Of a stretch of 64,000 bases of DNA, positions 11,813-28,633 are shown piece after piece. A model generated the notes under the pieces. That model was not told the DNA's origin. It saw nothing but the letters and a program-made list of their open reading frames with translations, and did not search any database. Position 1 is the stretch's first letter. Each line of letters opens with the position of its first letter. The position numbers were made by a program, and so were the translations under genes. Source of the stretch: Nibribacter ruber (lineage in GTDB: Bacteria > Bacteroidota > Bacteroidia > Cytophagales > Hymenobacteraceae); assembly GCF_009913235.1 (NCBI RefSeq), contig NZ_CP047897.1:310001-374000 (forward strand). Reading direction: 5' to 3'.

Positions 11813-11883
11813 GGTAACGTGGCCGAGTGGCTAGGCAGAGCTCTGCAAAAGCTCGTACAGCGGTTCGAATCCGCTCGTTACCT
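11813..11883 (+). tRNA. tRNA-Cys (GCA)
   Basis: A cloverleaf can be folded by eye. Acceptor GGTAACG pairs with CGTTACC; the D stem is GCC/GGC; the anticodon stem GAGCT/AGCTC holds loop CTGCAAA, so the anticodon is GCA (Cys); the T arm is AGCGG-TTCGAAT-CCGCT. The discriminator is T, the main cysteine identity base. CCA is not encoded. It has its own promoter and terminator. Confidence 0.96.
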
Positions 11884-12225
11884 CATTTAAGGAAGGAAAG
11901 CCCGCTTAGAGAAATCTACAGCGGGCTTTTTCGTTTATAGACTGTTCTTGTTGGCCGGGTGATTTGTATTCCTTCTTTTCTCCTCCAAGCTCTTCCCATC
12001 TTCGCTAAAAGTCTCTCATCTGGCAAGCCCATGCAAAAGGTGAAAAAACGGCCTCAGTACTTTCCGCAGGTAGTTTTTAGGGGTAAGACGCAAATATTCA
12101 AGTTCTCTAATCTTTTTGGTTTTTTCTGCGTACGCCCTACGTCTCCCGGTTGTTAAAGGAACCCTCAAGCAGTAGTGGTATTGGCAACGGGTAAGGCGTA
12201 AGAACACCACCCATCATAAGGAACA
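11884..12225. other. Region between tRNA-Cys and cphB
   Basis: 342 bp without a convincing gene. It contains the tRNA terminator and presumably the promoter of the cyanophycin pair. I see no known riboswitch or repeat of the main family. Confidence 0.5.
11898..11931 (+). terminator. Terminator of tRNA-Cys
   Basis: AAAGCCCGCT pairs with AGCGGGCTTT and runs into T residues, 15 nt after the tRNA. Confidence 0.85.
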
Positions 12226-24969: not shown

Positions 24970-25650
24970 TTACAATTCTATGGTTTGACCAATTTCCAGC
25001 AAGAGCAACTCTTTCTGCTGGCGCCGGGCTAGTTCCAAAGCCTCTACATGATCAATCTCAATGTACGGGAACGTGTCAAAGTGCATCCCAATCACTTTTT
25101 TGGTGTTTACATAGGTGGCGGCCACCAAAGCGTCTTCTACATCCATGGTGAAGTTGTCACCTATGGGCAGCATGGCAAAGTCAACCTTGTAGCGCTCGCC
25201 AATCAGTTTCATATCCAGGGTAAGGGCCGTGTCGCCGGCGTAGTAGAACGTTTTCTCAGCGCTCTCTACCACAAAGCCTGCGGCTACACCTGCGTAGGTG
25301 CCATCTGGCAAGGAGCTGGAGTGGATGGCGGTGACCATTTTTACGGTGCCAAACGGCAGATGCACTTTGCCCCCAATGTTCATAGGGTGTACTTTCTCTA
25401 TGCCTTTGTTCTGGTACCAGCCCACAATCTCATAGATGGCTACCAGAGTGGCACCGGTCTTCTTGAGCAAGTATTCCGCATCGGCCACGTGGTCTGCGTG
25501 CCCATGCGACAGTAATATGTAATCACACTCTATCTGGTCCAGCTTCACGTCAGACGCCAGCGGATTGCCCGAGATAAATGGGTCGAACAAAACCTTGGTG
25601 CCGCCCATGTCCAGCAGAAAACAAGATTGGCCGTAGTAGGTGATTTTCAT
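24970..25650 (-). CDS. UPF0173 metal-dependent hydrolase, MBL fold
   Basis: A 226-residue metallo-beta-lactamase-fold protein starting [20 protein letters not shown]. The metal site is [17 protein letters not shown] (HxHxDH), with [10 protein letters not shown] and [14 protein letters not shown] supplying later ligands. This is the UlaG-like UPF0173 group; no substrate is established. It is the first gene of the parA-parB-DUF5683-dapB-lepB unit, an arrangement seen in related genomes, but its functional link to segregation is unproven. Confidence 0.9.
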
Positions 25651-25700
25651 AAAAAGTAGACTTTTTAAGTTCGCGCTATACTAAACAATTTATGCTTTCA

Positions 25701-25708
25701 CAAAGATA
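25701..25708 (-). promoter_or_regulatory. Bacteroidota -7 element of the MBL-par operon
   Basis: The minus strand reads TATCTTTG, matching TAnnTTTG, 51 nt before the MBL start. No TTG was seen at the ideal distance. Confidence 0.45.
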
Positions 25709-26015
25709 CGGGAAATAAAAGATACTTTTTAGCGCAACTTATTAACACTTAGCGGGTATTTATCCCCATTTTCTAAAGAGCCAACCTTGAAGTCAGATGC
25801 TTGTTGAGATATAGTAAAAGCTTGATACTAAATTACTAATGACGCTGCGCGAAGGAAAAAGGCAGTGAAAGGTATCCTTTAGTTAGCACCCAGGCCAGAA
25901 CCGCCTTTTCTTGTACTTTTCTATAACGAGTGCCCCCTCAATCTTCGTTTTTCTGCCCAGTAAAATTCATTCAATTTTGGACGTGGCAAGCAAGACTCCT
26001 ATTAAAACTGATACT

Positions 26016-26055
26016 TCGTTTTTGAGCTATTTTCTGGAAAAGGGGCAAAAAACGA
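26016..26055. repeat. Dispersed palindrome copy 12
   Basis: TCGTTTTTGAGCTATTTTC and GAAAAGGGGCAAAAAACGA arms. It is far from any stop codon, within the long gene-free region. Confidence 0.85.
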
Positions 26056-26144
26056 GTTATAAGTTAAGAGTGAAATCTTTGTGCGTAAACTGGTGTAAGG
26101 TAAAGGGACGGTCATGGTCTGTTGAGTGCGCATACGAGAAGTAG

Positions 26145-26173
26145 TGTAGTGTCGATTCGTAGAACGACGCTAC
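26145..26173. repeat. Short palindrome, second family, copy B
   Basis: TAGTGTCGATTCGTAGAACGACGCTA shares GAACGACGCTA and the opposite arm with 9521-9546. It borders the structured GC-rich segment. Confidence 0.45.
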
Positions 26174-26227
26174 AACCGGCGGTCTAGGCCGCAAGGCCGG
26201 GCCGGTCACGTGCCAGCAGGTAGAAAC

Positions 26228-26640
26228 CGTGCCCCGGGCACGTATGCCTCTTCAGCGACAGGAACCGGTATCACCTACGACAAGCAAACCAAGCATCCAA
26301 CGTAAACAGAATGGAACCGAAACCAGTCCTGGTTCTGAGCGCCTCTGGTGTTTGTGCGCCGCGGCCAGCGGCGGAGGGGACAAAGTCCCACAAACAACAG
26401 CAGTGCGAAGGGCCGGGACGAGGCCCCGCGGCCGTGAGCGCTTACCGGAAGAAATGAAACAGGACAGTGAGTGCGCACCGGAACAGACGGCACTGCCAAG
26501 GGAAAGGCCAACGGAAGTGCACACAGGCAGCAGCAAAAAGTGGACCGAATGGAAAAGGCTACGAAGGGGTAACCAACCGTAGTGTACGGACAAGGCAATA
26601 ACACAGAAAGCCACTAAATTAAATCTGCGCCATAGTGGGC
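26228..26640. ncRNA. Candidate structured non-coding RNA or intron/element remnant
   Basis: About 410 bp, clearly richer in GC than the flanks, with a chain of short perfect stems: 26228-26234/26236-26242; 26321-26326/26329-26334; an apparent multibranch domain closed by 26337-26342/26438-26443 that contains 26350-26355/26390-26395, 26357-26362/26368-26373, 26377-26381/26385-26389 and 26410-26414/26422-26426; then 26490-26494/26516-26520, 26559-26563/26578-26582 and 26611-26615/26634-26638. I recognise no RNase P, tmRNA, SRP RNA or intron domain V. Strand is undetermined. It could also be the remnant of a structured mobile element. Confidence 0.35.
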
Positions 26641-26755
26641 AAAGAGACAGTCATAAAAGGCATTAGTTTTCAATTAGACATCACACTAGGCAGTCCTGCA
26701 AAGAGACAATCCTTTACACAAACCAAACTTTCCCTTCCAAACCATGCAAAAACAA

Positions 26756-26783
26756 AGAAGCCCGACCTATTGGCCGGGCTTCT
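26756..26783 (-). terminator. Terminator of yidC
   Basis: On the minus strand AGAAGCCCG pairs with CGGGCTTCT and is followed by TTTGTTTTT, 24 nt after the yidC stop codon. Confidence 0.85.
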
Positions 26784-26806
26784 CAAATGCATTATTTCAA
26801 AAGAAA

Positions 26807-28633
26807 CTACTTCGTCTTTTTACGCTCTGCTTCTTTCTCAGCTGCGGCCTTCATAGCATCCTGAATCTTCTTCTGGAAGCCGCCTTTCGGTTCTTTGCCT
26901 TTGTTTTTGGCTTGGTAGTCTTCTAAATTCTTACGGATGGTGGCATCGTCTACAAAGCGTCTGATCAAAGCCTGTTGCCCGAAGGTGACAATATTAGACA
27001 CAAAGTAATAGAAGCTCAAACCGGCAGGGAAGCTGTTCAGCACGAACATGAAGATGATCGGCATGAGGTAAGAGTAGAACTTCATGGGGCCCTGCACGCT
27101 GCTCACCTGGTTGTTAGACCAAGTGTACAAGATGGTAGAGGCGGTCATGAGCAAAGTGAACATACTCACGTGGCTGCCATAGAACGGAATGGTGAATGGC
27201 AGTTTGGCGAACACGTCATAGGTGCTCAAGTCATGCGCCCACAAGAACGGCTCCTGGCGTAACTCAATGGAGTTAGGGAAGAAATTGTACATGGCAAACA
27301 GAATAGGAATCTGCAACAGCATAGGTATACAACCGCTCATGGGGTTAACGCCCATTTTTGAGTACAGCTGCATGGTCTCTGCCTGCGTCTTCTGCATATC
27401 GCCTTCGTATTTCTCCTTGATGGCGTCAATCTCAGGCTTCAACACCTTCATTTTGGCCATGGAGATGTAAGACTTGTAGGTCAACGGGCTCAGAATCAAC
27501 TTGATGTATAATACCAGCAAGATGATGATGATACCGTAGTTGCCGATAAAGTCTTCCAGGAAGTCAAAAGCTGGTAAGATCAAAAGTTTGTTCACGTACG
27601 CGAAGATGCCCCAGCCTAATTCCAGGTTTCGGTCAAAGCCCTCCGTCACGTTCTTCAGGATGTCATGGTCGTTGGGACCGAAGAAGTAGGTGAAATGCGC
27701 TTTGTTGGCCAAGGCATCCTGCATGGGAATACCCAAGGTAGAACGCAGGGTCTTAATGCCTACAGTGTCCGTTTCAGGCAAAACTTCCAACCGCATCTCG
27801 GCAGTTTCAAAGCTGTTTTGGGCAATGATACCGGCGGTGAAGAAATTTTGCTTGTTGGCCACCCATTTCACAGGCTCCTCCAACTTCACGGTTTCGTTCT
27901 TGGTGGCGCTGGCAGAAATTTTGTCAAAGTCACCCTCGGCGGTGTAATAGTTCACCGTGGAGTGGGCTCTGTTCTGCTTCACGTCGCGTTCCAGGCGCTT
28001 CAGGCGGTCTGTCCAGGTGAGCACGATAGGCTTTTGGGCCACCACCTGCTGCATGCCTCTAAAGTTCAACTGGTAACCCACCTCATAAGACTGGTCTACC
28101 AGCGTATACACTTGCTCAATGGTTTGCCCGGGAGCCACCTGTGCCGTGAAGGTGATGACCTTAGCCGGCAATTTGTTGACCGTGGTGTTGGTAATGCCAG
28201 ACGGCTGGAAGAACAGGTCATTCAGTCTAACGGTGCGGCCAGAATTGGTCTGGAAGGCAAACACCTGCTCACTGCTCTCTTTGTCAAAGAGCAAAAGCGC
28301 TTTCTGGTTCCAGGTTTTGTAGTCTTTCAACTCCACCTGCTCCAAAGCACCGCCTTTGCTGCCCAGCGTGAGGCGCAATACCTGGTTCTCCAGGGTGACG
28401 GTCCGGTTCTGGCCTGTGGCCAACGTACCGAACTCGCCTAGCTGGGCCACGCGCTGCGCAGTTACCAGGGAATCATTGACCGGAGCCGGAGTAGTGGCGG
28501 CAGAAGCCACCTTGGTAGTAGTAGGCTGTTTTTGCGCAGGGTCCGTTTTGGGGGCATCCTGCATGAAGAAGACGCTATAAAGCAGCATCAACACGGCAAT
28601 CAGGCCCAAGCCTATTGCTTGATTTCTATCCAT
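26807..28633 (-). CDS. yidC: Membrane protein insertase YidC
   Basis: A 608-residue Gram-negative-type YidC. It has an N-terminal membrane helix (AIGLGLIAVLMLLYSVFFM), a large periplasmic beta-domain (about 60-340), then five conserved membrane segments with GNYGIIIILLVLYIKLILSP, a cytoplasmic loop of KMKVLKPEIDAIKEKYEGD and MSGCIPMLLQIPILFAMYNF. The C-terminus is Lys/Glu-rich. It inserts and folds inner-membrane proteins, alone or with Sec. It starts 17 nt after the pyrG stop and is the second gene of a pyrG-yidC unit. Confidence 0.96.
   Translation of the reverse strand: MDRNQAIGLGLIAVLMLLYSVFFMQDAPKTDPAQKQPTTTKVASAATTPAPVNDSLVTAQRVAQLGEFGTLATGQNRTVTLENQVLRLTLGSKGGALEQVELKDYKTWNQKALLLFDKESSEQVFAFQTNSGRTVRLNDLFFQPSGITNTTVNKLPAKVITFTAQVAPGQTIEQVYTLVDQSYEVGYQLNFRGMQQVVAQKPIVLTWTDRLKRLERDVKQNRAHSTVNYYTAEGDFDKISASATKNETVKLEEPVKWVANKQNFFTAGIIAQNSFETAEMRLEVLPETDTVGIKTLRSTLGIPMQDALANKAHFTYFFGPNDHDILKNVTEGFDRNLELGWGIFAYVNKLLILPAFDFLEDFIGNYGIIIILLVLYIKLILSPLTYKSYISMAKMKVLKPEIDAIKEKYEGDMQKTQAETMQLYSKMGVNPMSGCIPMLLQIPILFAMYNFFPNSIELRQEPFLWAHDLSTYDVFAKLPFTIPFYGSHVSMFTLLMTASTILYTWSNNQVSSVQGPMKFYSYLMPIIFMFVLNSFPAGLSFYYFVSNIVTFGQQALIRRFVDDATIRKNLEDYQAKNKGKEPKGGFQKKIQDAMKAAAEKEAERKKTK

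Follow-up and report, generated by a model that had tools for sequence, protein, structure and literature searches.

What occupies the interval between a metallo-hydrolase-like ORF (24970–25650, − strand) and a YidC-like ORF (26807–28633, − strand; both named by inspection of their translations) in the window, that is, in the whole 64,000-nt stretch of Nibribacter ruber DNA analysed here? A sequence-only reading had drawn attention to a segment at 26228–26640 of sharply different composition, seen either as a lineage-specific structured RNA or as the decayed remainder of an intron or other element. The compositional contrast was confirmed, with a G+C content of 0.62 at 26150–26449 and 0.59 at 26300–26599, compared with 0.39–0.42 in 300-base windows starting at 25550–25850, and with an AT skew of +0.29 and +0.48 in the same two intervals (A greatly exceeding T on the + strand).

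A DNA search of the window's own genome (G000, a single 4.35-Mb contig) returned at least 40 places at E ≤ 0.001, 40 of 56 candidates having been scored and all 40 matching. The segment is a member of a high-copy dispersed repeat associated with a palindrome family, which goes beyond what the sequence-only reading had proposed. That reading was right about the existence of the segment, and its coordinates need widening: similarity to other copies spans about 26162–26541, and a block at 26623–26635 is also present in some other copies (by eye). The second-family palindrome said to border the segment does so at 26017–26054; the right palindrome is absent from the window copy in the scan of 40 copies, and the right border is uncertain. 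By alignment, the copies in G000 are of two kinds: 27, among them that in the window, belong to a longer type A, and 13 to a type B. The two types differ in the middle; the outer helix, the 3′ part and the GGCC hairpin are common to both. The window copy, of type A, comprises the following features:

26017–26054, no strand: 38-bp palindrome, left border of the window copy (pattern match; a genome-wide family)
26055–26635, + strand: entire copy of the element, to the limit of its conserved blocks (similarity over 26162–26541, block 26623–26635 by eye, scan of 40 copies for palindromes)
26228–26242, + strand: hairpin CGTGCC..GGGCACG of the 5′ part (alignment of 27 type A copies by eye; outside the pair counts)
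26326–26419, + strand: core domain closed by helix P1 (window fold agrees with the alignment consensus; covariation)
26326–26336/26409–26419, + strand: core domain helix P1
26339–26342/26403–26406, + strand: core domain helix P2
26345–26355/26390–26400, + strand: core domain helix P3
26357–26373, + strand: hairpin P4, within the core domain
26377–26389, + strand: hairpin P5, within the core domain
26422–26433, + strand: hairpin P6, GGCC CCGC GGCC, the best-conserved part of the element (alignment, covariation)
26434–26541, + strand: conserved 3′ part with GUGAGCGCUUA, AUGAAACA, CACCGGAA and further blocks (similarity, alignment)

On the + strand, the 120 nt at 26324–26443 form a branched fold of −63.0 kcal/mol (z = −3.44, 1 of 200 shuffles as good), compared with z = −0.71 on the − strand, where 42 of 200 shuffles were as good. 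For the wider interval 26150–26680 (531 nt), z was −2.21 on the + strand and 0.00 on the − strand. The multibranch domain previously suggested at 26337–26443 is real: it overlaps this core, and it covaries over 38 copies.

Covariation was counted for a 38-pair fold on a sequence alignment of 38 copies from the genus. Alignments A1 and A2 held 38 and 26, respectively, of 92 sequences (91 loci, L028–L118, plus the window), all of type A, and the pair counts cover the type A consensus and not type B, from whose alignment L066 was omitted. In the 38-copy alignment 90.3% of cells pair, against 79.4 in shuffled alignments; 23 of the 38 pairs changed on both sides (13.3 in shuffles); double-change cells numbered 147, against 42.8 (sd 5.5), a total that 0 of 500 shuffles reached; there were 51 further pair types, against 44.9 (reached by 2 of 500); and the covariation score, 0.304 in register, was at most 0.120 once the partner was slid by 1 to 3 columns, these shuffle and slide controls correcting only partly for the kinship of the copies. 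The loosest helices were P4 and P5, with 78–80% of cells paired, and hairpin P6 carried a compensatory variant, GUCC/GGAC, in L305 and L306. A wider set of 23 matches had double changes at 36 of the 38 pairs, the GGCC hairpin included, in an alignment (A3) that was fitted to the model, hence leans towards the structure, and includes a doubtful viral contig (L272) as well as two weak rows. Selection acts on the fold, in which compensatory change is strong and exceeded both the shuffled and the slid controls, as expected of a structured RNA.

Cells with G-U outnumbered those with A-C (89 versus 34) and one G-U pair is retained in 33 of the 38 copies, which identifies the + strand as the folded one. 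One favoured strand would also be seen if the fold acted as single-stranded DNA, for instance as the recognition structure of an HUH transposase or as a replication origin, and HUH-type RAYT genes are present and many copies are flanked by palindromes. The retained G-U pair argues against such a role, however, as may the RNA-like look of the core, which is large, helical and interrupted by internal loops, and we consider it distinctly unlikely that the structure works as DNA and not as RNA.

The ORFs of the segment (117, 120 and 109 aa) do not constitute a conserved frame. Over the interval from −190 to +90 of the core, no frame is open in more than 10 of the 27 type A copies. Over a shorter, very conserved stretch (−115 to +45) there are three frames that stay open in 21 or 22 of the 27, which favours coding, but the near-identical DNA there amounts to only about 53 codons. 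The spacing from a 5′ anchor, located in 26 of the 27 copies, to the core is spread over the three phases (11, 8 and 7 copies). Because no frame stays open in most copies over the longer interval and the spacing occurs in all phases, coding was rejected.

The only match to Rfam 15 over the window at gathering score was tRNA; the sole tRNA found in the window is a tRNA-Cys (GCA) at 11813–11884. Relaxing the search of 25650–26810 to E 10 gave sub-threshold matches only, none of them within 26078–26616. Among 20 copy loci searched at E 1, the sole match above gathering score was a SAM riboswitch elsewhere in L085, and weak matches near some copies were far under their gathering scores. This riboswitch (RF00162) lies near one copy, at L085:408–519 on the minus strand, and scores 75.2 bits. 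A literature search, with preprints and most subscription papers outside its reach, found no description of the element. Absent from Rfam 15 and from the literature reached, this structured RNA is considered new.

Mobile, dispersed structured RNAs are known from group II introns, and the IscB omega RNA (HEARO) and non-autonomous elements of the IS200/IS605 type are likewise dispersed, multicopy and intergenic, with hairpins near their ends. Descent from one of these, or membership in another known class (TnpB omega RNA, IS110 bridge RNA, retron), would accord with a structured RNA dispersed in intergenic DNA and with the one gene with an RVT_1 reverse transcriptase domain in G000. No Rfam family was matched at gathering score, however, and conserved group II intron domains were accordingly not recognised; the RVT_1 domain occurs in 9 of the 16 genus genomes and is not universal. 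TnpB omega RNA was rejected with the absence of the TnpB domain (PF07282 in 0 of 16 genomes, control positive in 6 of 14), and IS110 bridge RNA with a recombinase domain (PF01548) found in 8 of 16 genomes and absent from both G000 and its sister species (G007). The RRXRR domain of IscB (PF14239) was found in 0 of 16 genomes, with its control positive in 0 of 14, so that an IscB partner may still be present. A derivation from any of these known mobile RNAs is, in our judgement, very improbable indeed. The suggestion of a decayed intron or element is not supported either, since all 16 genus genomes retain the core, with compensatory changes, while a reverse transcriptase domain was found in only 9.

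Trained on 26 type A sequences, a covariance model (R1) gave 52 matches in G000, and homologues exist in all 16 genomes of the genus, with 14 to at least 150 matches per genome (at most 150 candidates scored in each). In the family, matches were found in at least 68 of 150 genomes and 4 of 6 genera, and in the order in at least 14 of 291 genomes, 4 of them from beyond the family, each with one or two matches at 26–44 bits; because stricter filters were used at these two levels and fewer candidates were scored per genome (at most 21 and 11, respectively), these counts, zeros included, are lower bounds. In the matches of the order from outside the family, the outer helix and the GGCC hairpin are visible by eye in all but the weakest. 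Named genomes agree with this distribution: among the matches listed, 77 of 80 loci belong to Rufibacter, Sabulibacter or Pontibacter, with 93 model matches, about eight of which are weak antisense or low-scoring. The other three (Anaerolinea, Ancylobacter and a deltaproteobacterium; 11–15 bits, E 0.016 to 0.25) were taken as chance. The element was not matched in phages or plasmids. In the viral contig L272 (22 bits, E 5.6e-5) the alignment is limited to the GGCC hairpin region, within a stretch very rich in G+C, and we take this match, without proof, to be chance as well. With Rfam gathering scores unmatched, strong covariation and matches almost confined to one family, the proposal of a lineage-specific structured RNA is supported.

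Of 72 cases examined 56 were classified, and in these the neighbouring genes occurred in all four orientations (20, 15, 14 and 7, with a crude choice of ORFs), and the element therefore has no fixed role in cis. A cis-regulatory leader was ruled out by these mixed orientations, subject to the same crude choice of ORFs.

The yidC site was retrieved in all 16 genus genomes through the YidC protein, the loci extending about 1.49 kb past the gene, so that a copy lying farther out would have escaped notice. According to R1, the element is present there in G000 only (1 of 16 genomes), with weak scores of 10–12 bits (E 0.2–0.6) in L285 and L293. The sister species G007, whose YidC is 90% identical, has a single palindrome at this site (by eye). 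A comparable situation was seen by eye at the L046 site, where G000 has palindrome, element and palindrome, and G007 has one palindrome with the look of a left-right hybrid. Eleven sites are shared by the two species on both flanks (L034, L039, L040, L042, L051, L052, L062, L059, L060, L064 and L028), with the same orientation in 11 of 11, and two more match on one flank (L048 and L053). G007 sites were sought for part of the G000 copies and several (e.g. L029, L037, L041) were not located, so that the shared and unshared counts are no census. At the L035, L044 and L066 sites G007 has other DNA and not a clean empty site; opposite L035 and L066 an ORF stands in place of the element (L325:15450–16290 and L328:8660–9720).

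Copies at shared sites follow their genome and not their site. Over the 138-nt core, mean identity was 93.2% among 24 G000 copies and 85.6% among 14 G007 copies, and just 70.7% between the two groups. The cores of L034, L039, L040 and L042 are 70.1–75.9% identical to their G007 partners and 93.7–95.0% identical to other G000 copies; for L048, matched on one flank, the values were 71.3% and 90.4%. Even the type can differ at one site, as L028 in G000 is of type A and its counterpart L316 in G007 is of type B, in the same orientation. Since cores at shared sites resemble those of their own genome, the older copies seem to have been replaced where they stood, either through gene conversion or because a new copy inserted there again. 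Three G000 copies (L051–L053) resemble the G007 kind, which is probably the older one, and were not replaced.

Concerted evolution of this sort would also be expected of a multicopy host non-coding RNA with a cellular function (regulatory, or protein binding or titrating), homogenised by gene conversion and not selfish, and such an RNA would further explain the strong selection on the fold, the presence of the element in 16 of 16 genus genomes and the 11 sites common to two species. A copy number ranging from 14 to at least 150 among congeners, a yidC site occupied in 1 of 16 genomes and neighbour genes in all four orientations, with no fixed cis role, are harder to reconcile with it, and we regard a host RNA as possible but doubtful.

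The palindromes are a prominent repeat in their own right. The pattern CGTTTTT-N24-AAAAACG occurs 1135 times in G000, compared with 2 for a backwards-read control; in the window it is found at 23 places between 129 and 62363, and a relaxed scan finds 28 in the 64 kb. This family is a very high-copy REP-like repeat. A palindrome lies 200–700 bases upstream of the core in 32 of the 40 G000 copies, 100–420 bases downstream in 23 and on both sides in 19, counts that stand without comparison to element-free intergenic regions and in which closeness can be due to chance, given how common the palindromes are (28 in 64 kb). The right palindrome is absent in 17 of the 40 copies, including that in the window, and the left in 8. 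A loop-half variant (AATTC or AAATC) was present in 8 of the 23 downstream palindromes; upstream it occurred in 1 of 32, and the same relaxed scan of the window found it in 0 of 28. This concentration downstream suggests that in part of the copies the right palindrome is a component of the element. Of the hallmarks of a MITE, terminal inverted repeats and a target-site duplication, only subterminal inverted stretches were seen (by eye), and no duplication was established. At the yidC 3′ flank (L281–L295), the other genus genomes often have palindromes of a different sequence type (by eye), which look as if exchanged species by species.

High-copy extragenic palindromes (1135 versus 2 in the control) invite comparison with REP sequences and their RAYT transposases. 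A Y1_Tnp (RAYT) domain was found in 15 of the 16 genus genomes, most matches being weak (24–39 bits), with three genes in G000 and none among four candidates in G007, which nonetheless holds many copies; a RAYT match was thus not found in every carrier genome. NHLH and FWQ occur in all three G000 genes, YIHQNP in two and YLHHNP in the third; NHLH, FWQ and YIHQNP are tabulated as motifs of the Bacteroidetes RAYT subclass 2.6 in PMC6006769, where genes of this subclass are also said to have atypical secondary structures at their flanks. Palindromes lie close on both sides of one G000 RAYT gene (L137) and on one side of another (L136), and the third (L135) has only divergent ones downstream. The likeness to REP/REPIN-RAYT systems of subclass 2.6 (PMC6006769, PMC3116915) consists in high-copy palindromes, RAYT genes, palindromes bounding many copies and a RAYT gene (L137) between two palindromes. 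REPINs are short hairpins, whereas the element is several hundred bases long and has a branched RNA fold, conserved among copies, that lies beside or between palindromes. Unlike REP/RAYT systems, its copies are exchanged in place and it is found in G007, which has no RAYT match, and the palindromes lack the GTAG or CGTC start tags that the title of PMC3733652 names.

The element has a conserved + strand fold, is dispersed to dozens of sites, turns over between sites and exists as copies that follow their genome. With moderate confidence we read the window segment as one copy of a mobile repeat of the Hymenobacteraceae that is non-autonomous, intergenic and bounded by palindromes and that encodes a new structured RNA. 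Under this reading, the + strand would be transcribed and work as a folded RNA, probably bound by protein; RAYT-type (HUH) transposases of the host genome would act on the palindromes as REP-like sites; and old copies would then be overwritten in place through gene conversion or cassette exchange. The fold would most likely be retained because the RNA serves the spread of the element, or because it fits one trans-acting factor common to all copies. Several observations weigh against this reading: the many copies in G007 with 0 of 4 Y1_Tnp candidates and the low RAYT scores elsewhere; the copies that lack a right or a left palindrome, and the possibility that palindromes lie close by chance; and the unreplaced L051–L053, together with the other DNA found opposite L035, L044 and L066. 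Another possibility is that, with no conversion, copies inserted anew at sites that had been occupied before.

A more far-reaching variant, which we think rather unlikely, is a new mobile RNA system, in which a trans-acting machinery would use the structured RNA, or a single-stranded DNA copy, to rewrite the element repeatedly into palindromic landing sites, with copies and even types replaced in place and the palindromes, as landing sites, undergoing the same species-specific turnover. If transcribed, the element would represent an abundant and unexplained class of RNA in one bacterial family, and both what homogenises dispersed chromosomal repeats and what RAYT-type enzymes can mobilise could be tested on it in cultured bacteria.

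Some copies occur as head-to-head pairs on opposite strands, as in L306:752–1113, L204:91–593 and L299:1531–1816, the second copy of L299 being weak (11.6 bits).
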